Assembly: GCA_034096865.1 (NCBI GenBank)
Contig: JAWQFJ010001209.1
Coordinates: 94,741 to 158,740 of the forward strand
Source of the DNA: Theodoxus fluviatilis
Taxonomy: Eukaryota; Mollusca; Gastropoda; Cycloneritida; Neritidae
DNA: 64,000 nucleotides
Direction of reading: 5' to 3'
Shown here one piece after another: positions 6,772-63,837 of this stretch (position 1 is the first letter of the stretch; each line of letters opens with the position of its first letter). Both the position numbers and the translations under genes were made by a program. The notes below the pieces were generated by a model, which did no database searches, was not told the origin of the DNA, and was given only the letters and a program-made list of their open reading frames with translations.

Positions 6772-32915
<26,144 letters not shown>

Positions 32916-34728: not shown

Positions 34729-34730
34729 CG

Positions 34731-34817
34731 ATGGAGGACTACAAGTATCTCTTCAAAGTGGTGATGATTGGCAATGCTGGTGTGGGAAAGACATGTCTTG
34801 TGAGGAGGTTTACCCAG
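34731..34817 (+). CDS. Rab30: Rab30 exon 1 (P-loop)
   Basis: Twenty-nine residues from [10 protein letters not shown] to CLVRRFTQ, including GNAGVGKT. The ATG lies two bases after a CAG acceptor, so at least one 5' UTR exon precedes it. Donor GTAAGT. Confidence 0.95.
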
Positions 34818-37800
34818 GTAAGTAAGAATAAGTTGTGAAATTCTTTCACCAAAAGTGGTTCCTTGTTAACAAGATTCCCCCATCCTATTATTATGATCTC
34901 CATGTTTATAAAGTTAAAGAAAACAGTTAATATGAAATATTGAATTTAGTTGTTGCCTCTATTTTATGAATATAGAGGAGAAAGAGTATCATTGAGCAGT
35001 GCTGTCTGTGTGTTACACTTATACTGTGGTCCTGTCTGACGGTAGTTCCTAACACTAACAGTGGTGACAATGATAAAACTGACTGAATTTGACTAGAAAT
35101 TGTGAACAGTTGTGAAATAGAGAAAAATGAATGTGTAATGATTATGATATGACTTGAAAATACTACTTGTGATATAGAAAAAAATGTATGTGTAATGGTA
35201 ATGTTTGTACTTGTAGTACATGAAATTATGGTGGGAGGGGCAGTAGTAAGTAAAAGCCACATCATCAATGACTTTATTTATAGTTATATGTGTAGAGTTG
35301 CATTTAGGTAGACAAAATTCATACACGAATTGAGCAATAAACCCACGTTCAACATGTTCTAATACTTTTGACACTTGCACTAGATGCTTCCTTTTAGTTT
35401 TACGTTAATTTTTAGCTTGCTGCTGATGTGAATTATACTTCCCATATCTTCCTCCTCTACTCAGTGAGATGTTGATATTGGCTATCAAAATAGTGTGTAT
35501 GAAGCAGTTGGCTTAAGTTTAAGATATAAGAAGGATAATGATAATCTTGAACAGTTGGTAAGAGATGATAGTAAACCAAATGTTCAATTAATCTCAGACA
35601 ACTGCATACACACTGTATTAAGGCTTAATAGATATTATCCCATGTCACCCATCTCTGCCCCTTGCTGCCATTTCCATACTGCCCCTAGTTGCCATTTCCA
35701 TACTGCCCCTTGCTGCCATTTTCATACTGCCCCTAGCTGCCATTTCCATACTGCCCCTAGTTGCCATTTCCATACTGCCCCTAGCTGCCATTTCCATACT
35801 GCCCCTTGTTGCCATTTCCATACTGCCCCTAGTTGCCATTTCCATACTCATGATACTGCCCCTAGTTGCCATTTCCATACTGCCCCTAGTTGCCATTTCC
35901 ATACTGCCCCTAGTTGCCATTTCCATACTGCCCCTAGTTGCCATTTCCATACTGCCCCTAGCTGCCATTTCCATACTGCCCCTAGCTGCCATTTTTCCAT
36001 ACTACCCCTTGCTGCCATTTCCATACTGCCCCTAGCTGTCATTTCCATACTGCCCCTTGTAGGCATTTCCATACTGCCCCTTGCTGCCATTTCCATACTG
36101 CCCCTAGTTGTCATTTCCATACTACCCCTAGCTGCCATTTTCATGCTGCCCCTAGCTGCCATTTCCATGCTGCCCCTAGCTGCCATTTCCATACTGCCCC
36201 TAGTTGTCATTTCCATACTACCCCTAGCTGCCATTTCCATGCTGCCCCTAGCTGCCATTTCCATACTGCCCCTAGCTGTCATTTCCATACTGCCCCTTGT
36301 AGGCATTTCCATACTGCCCCTTGCTGCCATTTCCATACTGCCCCTAGTTGTCATTTCCATACTACCCCTAGCTGCCATTTTCATGCTGCCCCTAGCTGCC
36401 ATTTCCATACTGCCCCTAGCTGCCATTTCTATACTGCCCCTTGTAGGCATTTCCATACTGCCCCTTGCTGCCATTTCTATACTGCCCCTTGTAGGCATTT
36501 CCATACTGCCCCTAGCTGCCATTTCCATACTGCCCCTAGTTGTCATTTCCATACTACCCCTAGCTGCCATTTTCATGCTGCCCCTAGCTGCCATTTCCAT
36601 ACTGCCCCTAGCTGCCATTTCTATACTGCCCCTTGTAGGCATTTCCATACTGCCCCTTGCTGCCATTTCTATACTGCCCCTTGTAGGCATTTCCATACTG
36701 CCCCTTGCTGCCATTTCTATACTGCCCCTTGTAGGCATTTCCATACTGCCCCTTGCTGCCATTTCCATACTGCCCCTAGCTGTCATTTCCATACTGCCCC
36801 TTGTAGGCATTTCCATACTGCCCCTTGCTGCCATTTCCATACTGCCCCTAGTTGTCATTTCCATACTACCCCTAGCTGCCATTTCCATGCTGCCCCTAGC
36901 TGCCATTTCCATGCTGCCCCTAGCTGCCATTTCTATACTGCCCCTTGTAGGCATTTCCATACTGCCCCTTGCTGCCATTTCTATACTGCCCCTTGTAGGC
37001 ATTTCCATACTGCCCCTAGCTGCCATTTCCATACTTCCCCTAGCTGCCATTTCTATACTGCCCCTAGCTGCCATTTCCATACTGCCCCTAGCTGCCATTT
37101 CTATACTGCCCCTAGCTGCCATTTCCATGCTGCCCCTAGCTGCCATTTCCGTACTTCCCCTAGCTGCCATTTCCATACTTCCCCTAGCTGCCATTTCCAT
37201 GCTGCCCCTAGCTGCCATTTCCGTACTTCCCCTAGCTGCCATTTCCATACTGCCCCTAGCTGCCATTTCCATACTGCCCCTTGCTGCCATTTCCATACTG
37301 CCCCTTGTAGGCATTTCCATACTGCCCCTTGTAGGCATTTCCATACTGCCCCTAGCTGCCATTTCCATACTTCCCCTAGCTGCCATTTCCATACTGCCGC
37401 TAGCTGCCAGTACTGCCCCTTGCTGCCATTTCTATTAGGGTCTGCAACGAAGCTGGTAAGCAGGAGTATTTGCCGCTGGTGCTCTTTCGCGTGGAGAAAC
37501 CAAAAAGTGGTCTCTGGTCAGTACAAAGTGGCTTCAGAACGCAGTGAGAGAGTACCAAGAGGTGTTCATTTTTGTTGTGTTTGCCAGTGCTACCGTGGCA
37601 AAGTGATCGTTTATTGTCACAGTATGCAGGCATGAAGTGACGAAGCTAGGTTCGAGCTTGCACACAGATGTATCTAAATAACGGCGTGGATCGGTGTAGT
37701 GTAGTGCTGTTGAATACTAGGTCTCTCTCGTTCTCAGCATTTCTGCTGCAGGAATGCAGTGCATGATTATTGAACAGAGCTCGCGCAAACTACATTGACT

Positions 37801-40800
37801 CGTTAAAAATATCATTAAATGCACTCGCATATTCATTGTTGTTGTTGCTGTCCTCCTCATGTTTCCGTGTTCGTCTTTGTTTATCCTTTTTGTTGATGTT
37901 ACGAATAGACCCATCGTGTCTCCTTACGCGAAACGTGAAAAAATTTAAACTATGGGCATCAAGGCTTGACTCGCTCTTAGTCTCATTTGCTCCAGTTATG
38001 CTCTTGTTATTGGTCTTAACTAGCCGTCATAGGCTAATAAGCAGTAAAGCTCCATTCATTTATTCGTTCCGTCGGTCATTATGTATTAATGCATTCGTTT
38101 GTTCGTTCATCCCCATTGTCTGCATGTACAGGTCGATGCATCTGATATCACTCATTAAGACAGTTCTTAACCGGGCATATCTTTGACTGGGCGAACACTT
38201 AGCTCAGGAACTTATCCTGAGAGTAGGTAAAGCATATGCGAACAGTTTTCTGTCCGAACTACACAGTTACACGAGAAGCTGTCTAGTAGTGAGTACTCTG
38301 TAGCCCAACTTTTGACTTGATTCGATTTCGACGCACAACTCAATATGAATAATGTAGCAATATTCATTAACTATTGATGTACTCTACTTTGTGCTTTGAG
38401 ACATTAATACCGTTATTTAGGTACGGTGCCTATGTTTGTGTGTCAGTAATCCTGAAAATGAGCGTTTTGTGTTCGAGCTGAGGACAATATGGCGGTTGGT
38501 GCGCCCTGCCAGAGCAAGCCCTGGGAATACTATGTACACGTCAAACCTTGTTTCAAAGGAAAGTGTTAGTCCGGTTAAAAACGGCCTGTTTAGCGCATAT
38601 TCCCTTGTACATGCTTGTGTTGTAGTGGCCACACACAGGTTCAACCGTGAGTCCGTTATGCAAGGGGGAGGGACTTTGTGAGGAGATTGACACCCCACAG
38701 GCTGCCACAAGCTCGGGAGGGGAGTTCACGACTACTCTTATTCTCAAAACAAAATAGTTGTACAGGTCTGCATCCCGAAAATCTGCAGGAAAATCCACTG
38801 CCGAACACCATCCTGTCTTGAGGCTGACTGGATCAGGAAGTTTTTGGCCCGATGGTGTTGTTAGTTTTGGAAACTTTGGGGCCAAAGCGTCGGCACAGTC
38901 TATGTCGGATTCCCCGCCGATTGCTTTGTTTACCTTCAAAGCAATACAGCCCTTGACCCTTTGAATTAGGTCTGCTTTCGTCCCCGACAATGGCTGTTGC
39001 ATTTCCCGTATGAACTGCTTTAATTCCGGCACACGCCATCGTTCGAAATTTGCAGCGTCCATTGCCACCATATTTACAATAATGCAGTGTACTGACCAAG
39101 CAGGCGCGATAACTCTTGCGCTTAGCTTGTCAGGGGAAGCAATAACCCCCGTTGCAGACCCTAATACTGCCCCTTGTAGGGATTTCCATACTGCCGCTAG
39201 CTGCCATTTCCATACTTCCCCAAGCTGCCATTTCCGTACTGCCCCTTGCTGCCATTTCCATACTGCCCCTTGCTGCCATTTCCATACTGCCCCTTGCTGC
39301 CATTTCCATACTGCCCCTAGCTGCCATTTCCATACTGCCCCTTGCTGCCATTTCTATACTGCCCCTAGCTGCCATTTCCATACTGCCCCTAGCTGCCCCC
39401 TAGCTGCCATTTCTATACTGCCCGTTGTAGGCATTTCCATACTGCCCCTTGTAGGCATTTCCATACTGCCCCTAGCTGCCATTTCCATACTGCCCCTTGC
39501 TGCCATTTCCATACTGCCCCTAGTTGCCATTTCCATACTGCCCCTAGTTGCCATTTCCATACTGCCCGTAGCTGCCATTTCCATACTGCCCCTAGCTGCC
39601 ATTTCTATACTGCCCGTTGTAGGCATTTCCATACTTCCCCTTGTAGGCATTTCCATACTGCCCCTTGCTGCCATTTCCATACTGCCCCTTGCTGCCATTT
39701 CCATACTGCCCCTAGCTGCCATTTCCATACTGCCCCTAGCTGCCATTTCCATACTGCCCCTAGCTGCCATTTCCATACTGCCCCTTGCTGCCATTTCCAT
39801 ACTGCCCCTAGCTGCCATTTCCATACTGCCCCTAGCTGCCATTTCCATACTGCCCCTAGCTGCCATTTCCATACTGCCCCTAGCTGCCATTTCCATACTG
39901 CCCCTAGCTGCCATTTCCATACTGCCCCTTGTAGCATTTCCATACTGCCCCTTGCTGCCATTTCCATACTGCCCCTTGCTACCATTTCCATACTGCCCCT
40001 AGCTGCCATTTCCATACTGCCCCTTGCTGCCATTTCCATACTGCCCCTTGCTGCCATTTCCATACTGCCCCTAGCTGCCATTTCCATACTGCCCCTTGCT
40101 GCCATTTCCATACTGCCCCTAGCTGCCATTTCCATACTGCCCCTAGCTGCCATTTCCATACTGCCCCTAGCTGCCATTTCCATACTGCCCCTTGTAAGCA
40201 TTTCCATACTGCCCCTTGCTGCCATTTCCATACTGCCCCTAGCTGCCATTTCCATACTGCCCCTTGCTGCCATTTCCATACTGCCCCTAGCTGCCATTTC
40301 CATACTGCCCTTAGCTGCCATTTCCATACTGCCCCTTGCTGCCATTTCCATACTGCCCCTAGCTGCCATTTCCATACTACCCCTATCTGCAATTAAGCTC
40401 TAGCAACTCCCTCTGTTTTTCATTTTCAAACATTGTTCTTGATTGAAGCAGTGGCAATACAATCTTACAACAGAGCTGCCTGTTGTTCTTCGCATGACTG
40501 TAAATGTTTCAATAATGAGTCCAAGTAGAAACACTTGAGAGCTAGAGCACATCTTTGCAGTAGTCCAGGGCAGCTTGGAATGGTGGCAAGGGCAAAGTGT
40601 AATAGGATATTACAAATTAAATTTGTTTGCAGATGGGCTTGATAAGGCGATGCATGCATTGGCATTGAATGACATTGTGCCACACACAAGCCAAACAACT
40701 GCAGTGACTTTGCTGCATGCAATGCTGTCTATTGATGCCAGATTGTGTGTGTGTCTGTGCAGGGCTTGTTCCCACCAGGTCAGGGTGCCACCATTGGTGT

Positions 40801-43800
40801 GGACTTCATGATCAAGTCTGTGGAGATCAACGGGGAAAAGGTCAAAGTAAGTGTTCTAGTCCCGTGATTGATGATCAGAATTTTCTTAATGTCTCAGGGA
40901 GTTTTCATGAGTAATGCAAGGCCAACTCAATCATTTCAAATGCAGAACTTGGTAGGACTTGACAAAGAAATTATACAAATTGGTGCATGAGCATGAATGA
41001 CACTATGTAACATCATCTGTTGCTTTAATCTCTGATGAATATATTTTGTATAATTTCTGTATTTCTTGCTGCTTTCTTGTGCATTTATCAGTTTTATACC
41101 TTGCTGTGTGTCCAAGTGCTAATTTGCTTTTGATCTGCCCTGCACATAGTGTGTGTGTTCCTTTGATAGGGATGCAGTTTTCAGATGCATCTTTTTGGGG
41201 TTACAAAATGAAGTGAAATTGGAATTTGTGTCATGAAGAAAATATTTCTGGGATGCACTGAGTTTCTAGCTACAGAGAGAATATATAAAGTATTAATTCA
41301 TCTTAGAACTTAACTCTGTAATTGAGACAGTATGTTAAGTTACAGAGGCAATAATTTCATAGTGAACGTTGTGTTCTGTGAATGGGATTATAACAGATGC
41401 AAGTGAAGTTGGCAAGAGGTGGCTTGGGATTTGAGAACTAAACAGCAGGGCCACTTGCATAGCTGCAAAGTCTTGCGAGGCATGGGCCAGTGTCAGCATG
41501 CGTCAAAATTTGATTGCTTTTACATCTTCTTTCATTATGTTGACACATGTTGACACTGAGCTATATCTTGCAAGTCCTTGTAAGATACTACTGTAAGCAA
41601 TGCACTCTAGGCTTTACCTGACTAACATGTGTAGACGTATATTGCTTCCTTGCAGCTGCAGATCTGGGACACGGCAGGTCAGGAGAGATTCAGATCCATC
41701 ACACAGAGTTACTATCGCTCTGCCAATGCCCTCATCCTGGTGTATGATGTCTGCTGCCAGACGTCCTTTGACAACCTTCCCCACTGGGTCAACGAGATAG
41801 AGAGCTATGCTGGCTCAAAAGTGCTTGCCTATCTTGTTGGTGAGTTGCTGTACTAGATAGGTCTGTTTGGGATGAGCTACTAGACGTGAATGGGATGATA
41901 GCCTATCTTGTTGGTGAGTTGCTGTACTAGATAGGTCTGTTTGGGATGAGCTACTAGACGTGAATGGGATGATAGCCTATCTTGTTGGTGAGTTGCTGTA
42001 CTAGATAGGTCTGTTTGGGATGAGCTACTAGACGGGAATGGGATGATAGCCTATCTTGTTGGTGAGTTGCTGTACTAGATAGGTCTGTTTGGGATGAGCT
42101 ACTAGACGTGAATGGGATGATAGCCTATCTTGTTGGTGAGTTGCTGTACTAGATAGGTCTGTTTGGGATGAGCTACTAGACGTGAATGGGATGATAGCCT
42201 ATCTTGTTGGTGAGTTGCTGTACTAGATAGGTCTGTTTGGGATGAGCTACTAGACGTGAATGGGATGATAGCCTATCTTGTTGGTGAGTTGCTGTACTAG
42301 ATAGGTCTGTTTGGGATGAGCTACTAGACGGGAATGGGATGATAGCCTATCTTGTTGGTGAGTTGCTGTACTAGATAGGTCTGTTTGGGATGAGCTACTA
42401 GACGGGAATGGGATGATAGCCTATCTTGTTGGTGAGTTGCTGTACTAGATAGGTCTGTTTGGGATGAGCTACTAGACGTGAATGGGATGATAGCCTATCT
42501 TGTTGGTGAGTTGCTGTACTAGATAGGTCTGTTTGGGATGAGCTACTAGACGTGAATGGGATGATAGCCTATCTTGTTGGTGAGTTGCTGTACTAGATAG
42601 GTCTGTTTGGGATGAGCTACTAGACGGGAATGGGATGATAGCCTATCTTGTTGGTGAGTTGCTGTACTAGATAGGTCTGTTTGGGATGAGCTACTAGACG
42701 TGAATGGGATGATAGCCTATCTTGTTGGTGAGTTGCTGTACTAGATAGGTCTGTTTGGGATGAGCTACTAGACGTGAATGGGATGATAGCCTATCTTGTT
42801 GGTGAGTTGCTGTACTAGATAGGTCTGTTTGGGATGAGCTACTAGACGTGAATGGGATGATAGCCTATCTTGTTGGTGAGTTGCTGTACTAGATAGGTCT
42901 GTTTGGGATGAGCTACTAGACGGGAATGGGATGATAGCCTATCTTGTTGGTGAGTTGCTGTACTAGATAGGTCTGTTTGGGATGAGCTTCTAGACGTGAA
43001 TGGGATGATAGCCTATCTTGTTGGTGAGTTACTAGAAGGGTCTGGAATGCCTATGTTGTTAGTAAGATACTAAATGAGTCTGAGATTATGGACTATGTTG
43101 TTGATGAGTTACTAGATGAGTTTGAGATGGTGGCCTACTTTGTTGAGTGAGTTACTAGATAGGCCTGTTTGGGATGTTGGCCCATCTTCTTTGAAGATCT
43201 ATATTAGGATTGTGGCCTATGCTGTTGTTGAGTTACTAGATGAGTCTGTTTGGTATGATGGCCTGTTTTTGTATGGCATGACCCCACAAGGTACACCCCC
43301 CACTCCACCCCCCTTTTTTAAAAACTACAAGGACAAGAGTTACTTCCCTTTTATTGTTTAATTGCTGTGTTATTTCCCTTAAGGCCAGACACGGGGGTGC
43401 AATAGGACAAAAAATTAAACCAATACTATGATCAATTGTTACTATATGGTTTTGAAGTATATAACTTGGCAAACAAAAAACTATGTTCAATTACTAAATA
43501 CTGCTCACGGTTGCTATGGAAACAATCCAAGATGGCCGCCAAACATATGTTTTTAAAAAGCTTATAACTTTCAAACTACTACTTATAAACATGCTCTGTT
43601 TTCACAAAAATGCACAGACACACTCAAACTAAACATGTATCAGAAGGATTTTTTGAAATAGTGAATATTTATTTTTCTACAGAATTTTAAAGAAAATAAA
43701 TGCATCCGTTAGCAATTTTTAGACCATTTTCATATTTTCTCTGGCAAAAAATACCATTAAAAACTGGTTTATTTAGAAATCCTTCTGTCAAAATCTAGCA

Positions 43801-45722
43801 ATACATGTCATAAATGAAACTGCCAATATTCAAGGTGATGGCTTTATTCCTTCCAGAGTAGTAGTAGGTCAAATACACTGACCATAATGACGGAGAGAGA
43901 AATGCGGGAAACAGCACTTTAAAAATAACACATGCAACTCACCTGAAAAGAAGCTACACCAGGTCAGCCTAGGGGTTCCATGAATGAAAACATGAGTACA
44001 GCTATATCCAGGAGGCACACAATATCACCACAAGTCCCACAATATGAGAAAAGTGTAAATATTGACTGTTATTTGTCACCAATACACAGTAAAGTTGGTC
44101 CACCGAACTTGGTGTAGTCTCATATTTACACTGCCACCACCACTGTTGTGTGAGTGCCCACGTGATTGAGGTCTGACTGTATTCTACTGTTGTGTCCAGC
44201 AAAGCCGCACGAGCACTCATAAGCTGTTGTTTCCTTTTCACGTTCTTGGAGCGAGGCATCTTGATCACAAATGCAGAAAACACACACTGAAATTCTCAAC
44301 TTTTTCAGTCAGCCATTACAAACTGAAAGCGTCCGTGGAAGTGACGTCATGGCTTGTCAACACAAAATACGAACATTCTGATTGGCCGGATTCAAGTCAG
44401 TCACACGAAAGCGAGTACTCGGGTTGGTCAGAACGGTCCATCGATGCCGGCGTAGTACGCGAATGCCTTATATGGTGATTTCCGACAGTTTAGTGCCTTC
44501 GGAAAACTTCGCCAATGAGCTGTTTAGAACACGAAGAGCAACGAGTGAGTGTCTTGGCGGGAAAGATGACGTCGGCAGCTTTCCAGTGATTTCTCACACG
44601 ATACATTTCGAGTTTGGTTTCACGCAGTTGTCAAGGCTGAAAAGTCGCCATTTTCAGGGTATTTTGGCAAACCGCGTGAGCGTCTCGCAATTCGGGTTGT
44701 AGTAATTAGCAAAATAAAGTATGAAACAATATGTTTTTTTGACAAATCAAGTTACGTACTGATTAATATATCATAATAGAGTGAGAAAATGACATTATCT
44801 TAAAATCATGAAAAATCATGATTTTGGACGAAATCACACCCCCGTGTCTCACCTTAACTGTCAATATACCAGTTGGGTGGTGGGTGGTGGGGTGAAAGTT
44901 GAGGTGAAGAGGGGGGTGGGGTGGGAGGTGGTAAGTGGGAGTTGATGGGATAGTTTTTAAATGTGTGTAGTGTTAGTATTTTTCAGGCATCTAACATATT
45001 TCTTTTTGACTGTGAAAGGGAGAGATTTTTAACCAGAGATGGTGCATGAAAGTAAAATTGTAACAAGTTTATTTTCTTTATGTATCTGGTATTGTTTCCT
45101 GTGTCAATGGCAGTTTGTTTTGATTTGTTAATTAAATGTTGCCAGTGTTTTTCCATACAACTTAGTTAAGTGCTCATTGGTGCATTACTTGATGAACACA
45201 AATGGAAGTGCAGTTAAAATCATTGAACCATACATTCTCAAAGAAGTATTACATAACAGCATAACTTGGAACTGTTGTTCTTCTTACATGTCATGTTGAT
45301 CCCAAATTTTGGTAGTTGTTTGGAATGTTTAGTATCAATTTCATATGTAAAATCCAATCTACTTTGAACAGTAGTGAAAGTGAGAACATCTTGGATATGA
45401 ACTTCATTTTCACACAAGATCTTTACAACAGTGATAGTTTTTTAAAATTTAAATCAAACATCTCTCATCTTCAGGAAACAAGACTGATCAGATCAGTCGT
45501 CGGGAAATCCCAACCTACATTGGGGAACAGTTTGCTGCCAGGTATGAAATGAGGTTCCTGGAGACGTCTGCCAAGGAGGCAGACAATGTGGAAAAGCTCT
45601 TCATGGACATCGCCAGGGAGCTAACGCAGCAGGCTCGACGCCAGGACCTCTCATCTGATGCCAACAACTTTGCGGGCCTTGGATCCACCTCCCCTGTCAG
45701 TGCTCTCAGCTGCTGCAAATAG
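34731..45722 (+). CDS. Rab30: Rab30 small GTPase (4 coding exons)
   Basis: A Ras-superfamily GTPase of the Golgi and secretory route. Coding exons are 34731-34817, 40763-40846, 41656-41839 and 45475-45722, all with AG/GT borders and matching phases, giving 200 residues (human RAB30 203). Nucleotide-binding motifs are all present: GNAGVGKT (P-loop), TIGVDF (switch I), WDTAGQERF (switch II), GNKTD and ETSAK. It is nearly identical to human RAB30 from [16 protein letters not shown] through [18 protein letters not shown] to [11 protein letters not shown]. The C terminus is SCCK, a twin-Cys site for geranylgeranylation. Introns are large and rich in tandem repeats and transposons. It is divergent from Pcf11. 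Confidence 0.96.
35654..37435 (+). repeat. 24-bp minisatellite, left part
   Basis: About 74 tandem copies of a 24-bp unit of the form CATACTGCCCCTAGCTGCCATTTC, in Rab30 intron 1. Variants (CTTGTAGG, AGTTGTC, ATGCTG) recur in a fixed order at spacings that are multiples of 24: the AGCTGTC variant appears at 36034, 240 bp later, and 744 bp later. This shows higher-order duplication. The unit is a multiple of three and lacks stops, so several frames are open on both strands; I do not read these as genes. Confidence 0.97.
37895..38062 (+). mobile_element. SINE-like repeat, copy 2 (degraded)
   Basis: Blocks GAATAGACCCATCGTGTCTCC, GCTCCATTCATT and the GTCATAGGCTAATAAGC region match, in order, the better-preserved copy at 57662-57846. 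It is nested inside the 1.7-kb element. Confidence 0.5.
38553..39071 (-). CDS. SAP-domain protein fragment carried by the element
   Basis: The ATG at 39071, about 90 bp inside the right terminal repeat, opens a frame with a good SAP motif (residues 8-45: [19 protein letters not shown], then [13 protein letters not shown]). A region ending [11 protein letters not shown] follows. In many invertebrate SWIM/YqaJ-type proteins an N-terminal SAP motif precedes a segment of this sort (recalled, not searched). After YNYF the frame loses any resemblance and stops at 38553. It may be a first exon or a truncated capture. SAP motifs usually bind DNA. Confidence 0.6.
   Translation of the reverse strand: MVAMDAANFERWRVPELKQFIREMQQPLSGTKADLIQRVKGCIALKVNKAIGGESDIDCADALAPKFPKLTTPSGQKLPDPVSLKTGWCSAVDFPADFRDADLYNYFVLRIRVVVNSPPELVAACGVSISSQSPSPLHNGLTVEPVCGHYNTSMYKGICAKQAVFNRTNTFL
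39164..40390 (+). repeat. 24-bp minisatellite, right part
   Basis: About 51 further units of the same 24-bp repeat, continuing the array after the inserted element 37436-39163. Units here are more uniform than in the left part. Confidence 0.97.
40763..40846 (+). CDS. Rab30: Rab30 exon 2 (switch I)
   Basis: Twenty-eight residues, [15 protein letters not shown] to NGEKVK, phase 0 at both ends. It follows a GT-rich acceptor tract ending GTGCAG. Confidence 0.95.
41656..41839 (+). CDS. Rab30: Rab30 exon 3 (switch II)
   Basis: Encodes [12 protein letters not shown] to VLAYLV, ending in phase 1 at a GTGAGT donor. The last 13 exon bases and this donor form the first unit of a 74-bp tandem array running into the intron. 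Confidence 0.95.
41827..43029 (+). repeat. 74-bp minisatellite containing the Rab30 exon 3 splice donor
   Basis: Units begin GCCTATCTTGTTGGTGAG at 41827, 41901, 41975, 42049 and every 74 bp to 43011: sixteen full units plus a partial one, differing by single bases (GACGTG/GACGGG). The first 13 bases of unit 1 are the end of Rab30 exon 3, so all seventeen copies carry the exon end and GTGAGT donor. Confidence 0.98.
43030..43270 (+). repeat. Degenerate extension of the 74-bp array
   Basis: Diverged pieces of the same unit (GAGTTACTAGATGAGT, CCTATGTTGTTAGTAAG, GGCCTACTTTGTTGAGTGAG) continue for about 240 bp after the homogeneous array. They are probably older copies. Confidence 0.75.
43379..44857 (-). 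mobile_element. TTAA-flanked inverted-repeat element in Rab30 intron 3
   Basis: TTAA at 43379-43382 and 44854-44857 border inverted repeats GGCCAGACACGGGGGTG and, inverted, GGTGAGACACGGGGGTG (17 bp, two mismatches). Length is about 1.48 kb. TTAA targets are used by piggyBac and Kolobok elements; the end sequence does not settle which. One short frame lies inside (44002-44259). Confidence 0.8.
44002..44259 (-). CDS. Short ORF within the TTAA element, function unknown
   Basis: The ATG at 44259 opens [20 protein letters not shown] and continues for 85 residues. The basic start resembles first exons of transposase-like proteins but no domain is recognised. It may be a remnant first exon. Confidence 0.35.
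   Translation of the reverse strand: MPRSKNVKRKQQLMSARAALLDTTVEYSQTSITWALTQQWWWQCKYETTPSSVDQLYCVLVTNNSQYLHFSHIVGLVVILCASWI
45475..45722 (+). CDS. Rab30: Rab30 exon 4 (NKxD, SAK and prenylation tail)
   Basis: Encodes [19 protein letters not shown], the [14 protein letters not shown] segment and the SCCK end, with TAG at 45720-45722. Confidence 0.95.
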
Positions 45723-60804: not shown

Positions 60805-63584
60805 CTAGAAGACGGGGTTGGCACTGTGAGTGGGAGTCTCGTCGCTCTGGAAGTTGAGGTTCGAGGCTCCGCCCGAGGCCTGCTCTCCCTCCATCTCCAG
60901 CAGACGTTCTGTGGAGGGGCTTCGGGCGTTGCTCATGGAAACGCTGCTGGAAGACCCAGACCCGTGACGGCGGTGCTCGAGCAAGGCGGCCTCGCCGTTC
61001 TGCTGCTCGGGGTAGCCCGTGATGCCGATGACCAGGCCTTCATTGATGGGATGCATTCTCACCTGCACCTCGCCCGACCCCAGGTCCCCGCCGTTCCTGT
61101 AGCGGTTGTCCACCAGGACAGGGCTCTTGCGCAGCGTCTGCACCGTGGCGTTCTCCTCGTAGATTGTCTTGGGTCGCGGGATCCGCGTTAGCGTGAAGTC
61201 CTCCATCTTGAGGTTGACGTGGGGGATGTCCACCAGGTCGAAGGACTGGGCATACTTGCGGCGGTAGCACTCCCGGAATCCCATGATGGCGCAGAGGACG
61301 ATGAGGATGGCGCATACGCTGCAGGCGACGATGATGACGATGATGTCAACGTTGTCGATGGCAACGGAGGGCACGTCGATGGAACCAACGCCCGAGGACG
61401 GGAGGTCAACCTGCCGGATGTCGTTGGCTGTGAAGGTGGCCATGTGACCCTCAAGGACCACGGGAAGGACCAGGCGGCGGGACTGGATCATCTGACGTAT
61501 GTGGACGCCGGTGGAAGGACAGTGCATGTTCTCCATGGACACGTAGATCCTGGTCGGATTGCATTGCAGATCGTGCGGCTTGATCCGTGACCCCGGTATG
61601 TTGAGCTCTCGGGTTAGCTCGGTGAGCAGCGCACCGACAAACTCCGCCAGATGCATGGTGTTGTTCATCACCAGATGACAGTTGCCGTCGAAGGTGATCA
61701 GGTAGTGGCAGTAGTGCCGCCCTACTGGGTCATGTGTTGTGAGGGTCACGTGTGTAGTGGTGACGGGAGCTGGGGACGGGGCAGAAGAGGTCGATGTCTT
61801 GGGTTTTTCCACTTCGCCAGTCTCCGTTGCTGTCACTGTAGTCGTAGCTGTCTCGGTCAGAGTTGCAGAAGGAGCAATATAGGAAGACTTCACCTTTGGA
61901 TATGGTTTCGCAGAGCTCTCCACAGTGGATATTTGTGATGAGGTCAACTCTGGAACAATGGGGAAAGACGGGGACGTAGTGATTGAGGGGAACGGGACAC
62001 CTGACAAATAGGATTCAGTTTGGTAGTCAGTCGTTGTAGTGGTCTTTTCGGGTTGCGGTACTGGAGGCCACGTAGGCGTGGCCGAGGAGAAGTAATGTTC
62101 AGTTTGGGATGGAAAGATCGAGGCCGACACAAACGAGCTCGTCATATGGGGAAGAACAGGGCTTGCTCTCATCTCTGACGACATCCATTCTGAATGTCCT
62201 TTCTCACCACTAGTCTCTGTTGCAGAGATAACCGCAGTGACGTGGGACGTCTGAGAAACTGGGGCCCTTCCTGACCAATCCTCGGAGACCTTGCTGTCTG
62301 CCGAATGCACTGATGGCAAGTAAGGCGACGGCCGATGTGTACTGTGCAAACCCTCAATCTCGTGACTGGTCAGGGAGGAGCTCTCACCCACGCCAGTCGT
62401 TGTGAGGGGAGGAGGTCTATCTTTGCTGGACATGGTGGTCGAGGTCGCCAAGACGGCTGTTGGTTGATCAGACTGCTCAGCCGAAGTTACGTGCAGATGA
62501 CTGGCAGGGAGCGGGACAAACGGTCGGGCTTCCATCACGCTTGTTGACACCAGTGGTTCAGAGGACAGATGAACTCTGTGTCCTAATAAACCGTCAGTCA
62601 TCTCAGGCGTGGCAAACAGAGTGCTGGATTGCATCAGGACTGGAGTAGTCAGGGACGATGGAAGCAGCTCGGGATCAGGCGGACGCCTCGTGCGATAGGA
62701 GGACGTCGGTTGACTGGACTGGTAGAGCCAGGAGTAAATCTTAGCCTTTGATGAAGTGACTGCATCCATGGAATGCAGAGAGGACGTTTCTTCTGAGATA
62801 GACGAGGTTGGAGCAATCTGTGCTGACACCGACGGTAAGGCGTCTGTTTGTCTATACACATGCGTGGGAGATTCAAGAAGGGGATGGTGGTCGAGGACGG
62901 AAGTGTACATCAAATCGTGCATTCCTGAAGTGGCCGTAATGCCACGGGTTGAACGTGTCCCATCCGCTCCTGGCGCCTGAAAGGGAAAAGTACTTTGCAG
63001 ATGACTACCAGACGTTTGGTCAACGTGGGAGGATGTCCCTTGAAGTGGAGTATGATCGTATGTGTTGGGAACACCATTACGCCAGGCTGAACTGATCTGA
63101 AAGTGACCTGCTGGCGTGGTCAAGACTTGTCCACGTGGACTTAAATGTTCTGGCAATTCTTCTTCTTGACTTGAGTAATAGGCTGACTCATAAAAGCTTT
63201 CATCTTGCCCGCCATGCCCAGGAAGAGATGATGAGGGTTGTTCCCCTTGAGTAGATTTTCTTGAACTGCCATCGTAGGCAGTAGGAAAGGCAGGGGGCGT
63301 CACTCTGGTTGGATACACTGGGGGAATGACGTCATGAGAAAGGAGATCAGGGTTGTAACTGTTCATCTCACTGACGCTACGTTCTGGAGTTAAGTGTCCG
63401 GGGCCCGCAAGCCTGGTGGGAGGTTCCAAGCCGACTATCGTCGGTGTGGGCGCAATGCTGCCGAAGTGTGAAGGCGTGTGTATTTCATGGTGCCGGTAGT
63501 CCTCGTAGAAAGAGGCAGAAGAAGCTATGGAGCTGGATAGCCTCGTGGAGATCACGTCCGCGTCTGCAGCCTGCGTTGTCAGAT
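60805..63584 (-). CDS. Mucin-like single-pass membrane protein, last exon
   Basis: One large exon of about 925 residues with a TTGCAG acceptor at 63585-63587 and TAG at 60807-60805. About the first 600 residues are Ser/Thr/Pro/His-rich and of low complexity, suited to O-glycosylation and extracellular exposure. A compact domain with conserved-looking Cys follows (HYCHYLITFDGNCHLVMN, LQCNPTRIYVSMENMHCPS; 61440-61730), possibly SEA-like. Then comes a membrane segment VDIIVIIVACSVCAILIVLC (61275-61350), a basic stop-transfer FRECYRRKY, and a cytoplasmic tail of about 165 residues ending SANPVF. Type I orientation is inferred. I do not recognise the family; a KIAA1549-like or dystroglycan-like protein would be a guess. 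Signal peptide and upstream exons lie outside or at the window edge. Confidence 0.85.
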
Positions 63585-63837
63585 CTGCAAGTAGAAATAT
63601 AATTTTTCATTAGCATTGCTGTACGAATACGGCTCACTTGTATACTCTACACGGAGGTAAATATAAATGATTACATCCACCAAATATTTTTATCAGCTTG
63701 TCTTATTATAATGACAGGGCTTCCCGATGATTCAAACGCACGAAATTAAAGAACATACTCTCCTATTCATGGAACTGGAAGAGCTTTGAAAATGGCGAGA
63801 AAGAAGAAGAGGTTAGAATATAGGTCACGGGTGGATA

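Follow-up and report, generated by a model that had tools for sequence, protein, structure and literature searches.

When a tandem repeat copies a 5' splice site many times in series, which of the copies closes the exon, and do the remaining copies affect the output of the gene? The question is raised by the Rab30 gene in a 64,000-nucleotide stretch of the genome of the gastropod Theodoxus fluviatilis (contig JAWQFJ010001209.1, positions 94,741 to 158,740 of the forward strand), referred to here as the window. A minisatellite with a 74-bp unit starts inside the third coding exon of the gene and carries seventeen donors. The original prediction interpreted the array as a splice-choice switch or a trap for nonsense-mediated decay (NMD). 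We consider it probable that the array is a neutral expansion of the exon border, in which the first donor is used and the later donors are latent.

Tandem Repeats Finder (TRF) delimits the array at positions 41827–43030, with a period of 74, 16.3 copies, and 99% matches. The start is positioned 13 bases inside exon 3, which ends at 41839, as had been predicted. The claim of seventeen identical donors in series also holds: the motif GTGAGT is found at 41840 and then exactly every 74 bases up to 43024 (n = 17), and the array contains 17 of the 34 GTGAGT motifs on the + strand of the window. The spacing, maintained across 1.2 kb, is far beyond chance. Each of the 17 units carries a copy of the donor in the form TTGTTG/GTGAGTT, where the slash marks the border, and the 13 bases around it, TTGTTGGTGAGTT, are identical in 17/17 copies. 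The identity ends one base further out, because the seventeenth copy sits in a partial unit whose agreement extends over 20 bases only. Comparison of the 16 full units with unit 1 reveals two variable positions and no third: T is replaced by G at unit position 61 in units 3, 7, 8, 11, and 15, and A by T at unit position 53 in unit 16. The 74-bp layer may therefore be young or recently homogenized. For the T/G variant, we claim no higher-order pattern of four units (units 3, 7, 11, and 15); lag 4 was the best, with a permutation p of 0.06. A search of the window against Rfam at gathering scores gave no matches.

The four coding exons together form a complete Rab30 frame of 200 residues. Its best match in the PDB is the Ras-related protein Rab-30 (2ew1, 154.8 bits; next match 118.7), and the nearest named proteins among the matches listed are the Rab-30-like protein of Haliotis rubra, with 79% identity over 100%, and that of Gigantopelta aegis, with 78%. 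Joining of 41839 to 45475 restores the VGNK motif in the sequence ...AYLVGNKTD..., and the frame is open to a terminal ...SCCK and stop. The motif GNKxD is present in 120/120 relatives of the protein (the best 120 of 272 above threshold, which is also the set used below). Conceptual transcripts from donors 2, 3, 6, and 17 all finish with ...LVGELLY and a stop, in agreement with the prediction that a later donor adds GELLY and then the TAG at 41854–41856. Because this TAG precedes donor 2, the same end applies to all 16 later donors. The premature stop precedes the last junction by 57 nt for donor 2, by at least 131 nt for later ones, and by 1167 nt for donor 17. With a distance of 57 nt or more, NMD is therefore possible in principle.

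The end of exon 3 is the likely source of the array sequence, since Rab30 proteins elsewhere, those of Haliotis rubra and Sinanodonta woodiana, contain the same AYLVGNK. The corresponding segment reads TYLVGNK in Gigantopelta, Lineus, and Lingula, whereas other named molluscs and lophotrochozoans have TF, SY, or GY. The column that matches the tyrosine of exon 3 is occupied by Y in 28 of the 120 proteins and by F in 4. It was considered that a foreign satellite had overwritten the end of exon 3. Such a capture is thought unlikely, because the Haliotis and Sinanodonta orthologues share AYLVGNK, and because a 1501-base query covering the array matches one place in the snail's own genome, a count that is a lower bound as very common words were skipped.

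Downstream of the 74-bp units, the sequence continues as copies of an older unit of approximately 42 bp. The first, T1, is a hybrid (43011–43048) whose initial 20 bases are the seventeenth partial unit. It is followed at 43049–43260 by five decayed copies, T2–T6, of 35–47 bases each, which open with versions of the exon-end sequence. In the alignment, the 74-bp unit corresponds to one ~42-bp unit with a short insertion and a truncated second one, and it seems to have been built from the older unit. The sequence shows that tandem duplication at the border of exon 3 founded the minisatellite, and the alignment suggests two layers: an older one, now decayed, and a younger one with the 74-bp unit. 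Since the tidy copies adjoin the exon and the decayed ones are distal to it, growth of the array from the exon end is suggested. The decayed tail and the irregular variants at unit positions 61 and 53 are as in real arrays, which argues against the array, or its length, being an artefact of assembly. The 965-Mb assembly is divided into 19,668 contigs and provided one place for the locus, hence no second allele for comparison; nevertheless, we regard an artefact as very unlikely.

The frequency of tandem arrays in this genome was estimated from 20 stretches with a total of 196,942 bases, a non-random sample in which 19 stretches were taken from after position 30,000 of chosen contigs and one from beside the window. 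At thresholds of at least 300 bases in length and a period of at least 10, the survey found 23 arrays in 13 of the 20 stretches, covering 9.7% of the bases. Twenty of the 23 had at least four copies and a period of no more than 100. Scaled to the genome, the survey corresponds to about 113,000 arrays. If the genome had 100,000–200,000 donors, a number that is assumed and not measured, about 860–1,700 arrays with 74-bp units would be seeded on a donor by chance, before selection. An array that bears donors is therefore not very surprising here. The other arrays are long tandem repeats likewise; that of Rab30 starts inside an exon and hence contains a donor. Three of the surveyed stretches hold four separate long tandem arrays apiece.

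A switch that depends on copy number would require that some transcripts take donors 2–17, gain GELLY and the stop, and are degraded, so that the output of Rab30 falls with array length. Consistent with this, the seventeen donors are identical over the 13 bases given above and equal in predicted pairing with U1, the stop precedes every later donor, and it is at least 57 nt from the junction. Alternative use thus places a premature stop upstream of a junction, as in NMD or poison-exon switches. A switch would also be expected to preserve its alternative sites, and such preservation is not seen in the five decayed copies, albeit a small sample from one locus. In T2–T6, matches to the unit amount to 22/30 for the donor bases, 54/65 for the exon-derived bases, and 87/106 for the rest; the donor GT is kept in T2 and T4 and lost in the other three. 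With T1 included, the values are 28/36, 67/78, and 103/125, and the GT is kept in 3/6. There is no sign of selection for the extra donors with or without T1. In the human gene F7, whose intron 7 contains 37-bp repeats, normally only the most upstream donor is used, according to a review (PMC6627357). With donors not preferentially retained, large arrays common in this genome, and the first donor alone normally used in F7, the proposed switch or trap is not supported, and we consider it quite unlikely.

It is equally improbable that the extra donors assist donor 1, by gathering U1 small nuclear ribonucleoprotein (snRNP) just downstream and thereby increasing recognition of exon 3, so that a longer array gives more correct Rab30 mRNA. 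The evidence for such help comes from genes other than Rab30. Engineered U1 small nuclear RNAs that pair near a border, and not at it, can rescue exons, as described in PMC8283771. Young adults with seven or more of the 37-bp repeats in F7 were reported to be at increased risk of ischaemic stroke (PMC4183524), which is the direction that we would expect if more repeats resulted in more factor VII. The decayed copies, however, show no preservation of donors.

The selection of donor 1 may be aided by RNA structure. The predicted exon-terminal helix ends on the last exon base and leaves the GTGAGT of donor 1 outside. The intronic copies are without the exonic partner 41790–41800, and their predicted pairing is within a unit or across two units. 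Depending on the window of folding, the openness of positions +1 to +6 is 0.026–0.138 for donor 1, 0.007–0.089 for donors 2–16, and 0.025–0.094 for donor 17, and donor 1 ranks first among the 17 in four of the five window settings. In a 72-nt window, donor 1 has a value of 0.13, and donors 2 and 17 have 0.004 and 0.052, respectively. The z-scores of RNA folding are −2.59 for the 36-nt unit hairpin, −0.58 for the whole unit, and −1.14 for the exon-plus-unit stretch; those of DNA folding are −3.43 for the 36-mer and −1.42 for the whole unit. One predicted fold, from 41741 to +74, does not contain the exon hairpin. Among 1000 synonymous recodings, the minimum free energy (MFE) was as low in 7 (0.7%) and the donor as open in 15 (1.5%); with the last 12 bases fixed, the MFE was as low in 1.9% and the donor as open in 2.3% (23/1000). 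Because several windows were inspected before the test, the recoding result is only suggestive, and the opening of donor 1 by the hairpin is a lead rather than a result, post hoc and dependent on the window. It is possible, if unlikely, that structure settles the seventeenfold competition. The exon end would then pair with an upstream exonic segment that precedes the first copy and no other, donor 1 would be open and the intronic copies closed, and the array would be tolerated or would act as a U1-gathering enhancer that grows with copy number.

We favor the reading in which the array is nearly neutral and splicing takes place at the first donor, 41840. This donor would be used because it closes the 184-nt exon, because the repeat donors of F7 are normally silent, and perhaps because the predicted exon-terminal hairpin opens it. 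Donors 2–17 would be intronic pseudo-sites that matter mainly if donor 1 is damaged. Several points weigh against this reading, beginning with the use of donor 1 itself, which we infer from sequence and analogy. Donor strength alone cannot pick donor 1, because all 17 array donors tie at −9.2 kcal/mol in predicted U1 pairing (exon 1 donor −13.7, exon 2 donor −7.5), and two of the 284 intronic GT sites scored, both outside the array, are better: 44931 (−10.2) and 44880 (−9.5). A review (PMC8283771) states that U1 is bound at multiple sites early on, and that commitment is influenced as well by where U1 and U2 lie relative to each other; these positions could favor later donors. The openness of donor 17 at +1 to +6 ranges from about half that of donor 1 to above it, and exceeds it at one setting. 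The advantage of donor 1 is gone once position −1 is included. Over −3 to +6 its openness is 0.007, no higher than that of the other array donors (0.003–0.012); the donors of exons 1 and 2 have 0.014 and 0.240, respectively. Two units folded jointly form cross-unit pairing and not separate hairpins.

The array could also be spliced as pseudo-exons, in which an AG in one unit combines with a donor in the same or the next unit to form short in-frame exons that lengthen and do not truncate Rab30. For pseudo-exons ending at 41987, an open in-frame insertion results from four of the six AGs tested; these insertions, of 12, 30, 57, and 69 nt, end in AYLV and leave VGNK intact. The pyrimidine content before three of the six AGs of unit 1 is 0.55–0.65, within the 0.55–0.70 of the four real acceptors, whereas before the remaining three it is 0.35–0.45. 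Openness is not special to these segments, because the same phase is also open in 1349 of 5000 random intronic 57-mers. We consider splicing of this kind extremely unlikely. Stop-free in-frame pseudo-exons such as 41919–41987 have equivalent places in other units of the array.

Features of the Rab30 locus are collected in the table. The first coding intron of the gene additionally contains two arrays, at 35655–37409 and 39164–40394, about 1.75 kb apart, whose 24-bp units (CTGCCCCTAGCTGCCATTTCCATA) closely resemble each other; together with the 74-bp array, the gene therefore holds three long minisatellites. Elsewhere in the window, two neighboring open reading frames (ORFs) at 8581–10733 (+) match the transposase family DDE_Tnp_1_7, which we take to be piggyBac-like, one in its first part and the other in its second, and TG/GA microsatellites are located between them (9700–9803). 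At E 0.001, Pfam gave no match for the long ORFs at 60805–63606 (−; 933 residues), 17047–19497 (−; 816 residues), and 19726–21516 (−; 596 residues), and a comparison of the 933-residue ORF with 7996 scored candidates gave no relative at the same threshold.

Table. Coordinates of Rab30 features in the window; a slash in a motif marks the exon–intron border.
Feature	Position	Strand	Details	Basis
First coding exon of Rab30	34729..34817	+	ATG at 34731; donor CAG/GTAAGT	borders inferred from sequence
Second coding exon of Rab30	40763..40846	+	donor AAA/GTAAGT	borders inferred from sequence
Third coding exon of Rab30	41656..41839	+	184 nt; array unit 1 begins with its last 13 bases	
Predicted exon-terminal hairpin	41790..41839	+	41790–41800 pairing with 41829–41839; helix ends on last exon base	folding only
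74-bp tandem array	41827..43030	+	16 full units and a 20-base partial unit; 17 donors	TRF, motif count
First donor	41840..41845	+	GTGAGT; gives full-length Rab30 on conceptual joining	translation
Premature stop	41854..41856	+	TAG; reached by a transcript from any later donor	translation
Copies of older ~42-bp unit	43011..43260	+	hybrid T1 (43011–43048; initial 20 bases form the 17th partial unit), then five decayed copies T2–T6	
Last coding exon of Rab30	45475..45722	+	acceptor ATCTTCAG/GAAACAAG; stop TAG 45720–45722	

The array is probably a neutral natural experiment and not a switch. Serial identical donors provide a clean test of 5' splice site choice, because donor strength cannot decide it. 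The locus also shows that, in a genome rich in tandem arrays, an array can extend into a coding exon and leave the protein frame intact, as long as the first donor keeps working. Poison-exon and NMD switches based on alternative 5' splice sites resemble Rab30 in that a later donor brings a premature stop; however, the extra donors of Rab30 are not preferentially kept, and any regulated use of them would be hypothetical. A tandem repeat also affects splice-variant output in MIR137HG, where a variable number tandem repeat alters splicing; the excerpt of PMC6692358 does not mention donor copying. Among the literature matches listed, no second gene with a donor-copying repeat was recognized, nor a study of Rab30 splicing in molluscs.

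In F7 intron 7, the exon border lies within the first repeat, every repeat contains a copy of the donor, and the number of donors is 5–8. By analogy, the Rab30 array may be described as an exon-border minisatellite, closest in layout to that of F7: the authentic donor is in the first unit, which spans the exon–intron border from 41827, 13 bases inside exon 3, and a donor is copied in every unit (17/17). The unit of Rab30 is 74 bp, compared with 37 bp in F7, and its donors number 17, compared with fewer in F7. The Rab30 array also differs in belonging to a mollusc gene, in its nearly identical units, and in that the silence of its later donors is presumed. In F7, mutation of the first donor activates the downstream cryptic donors (PMC6627357). 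With its 17 nearly perfect copies, the mollusc gene would take a test of the F7 type to another phylum and to a longer array.
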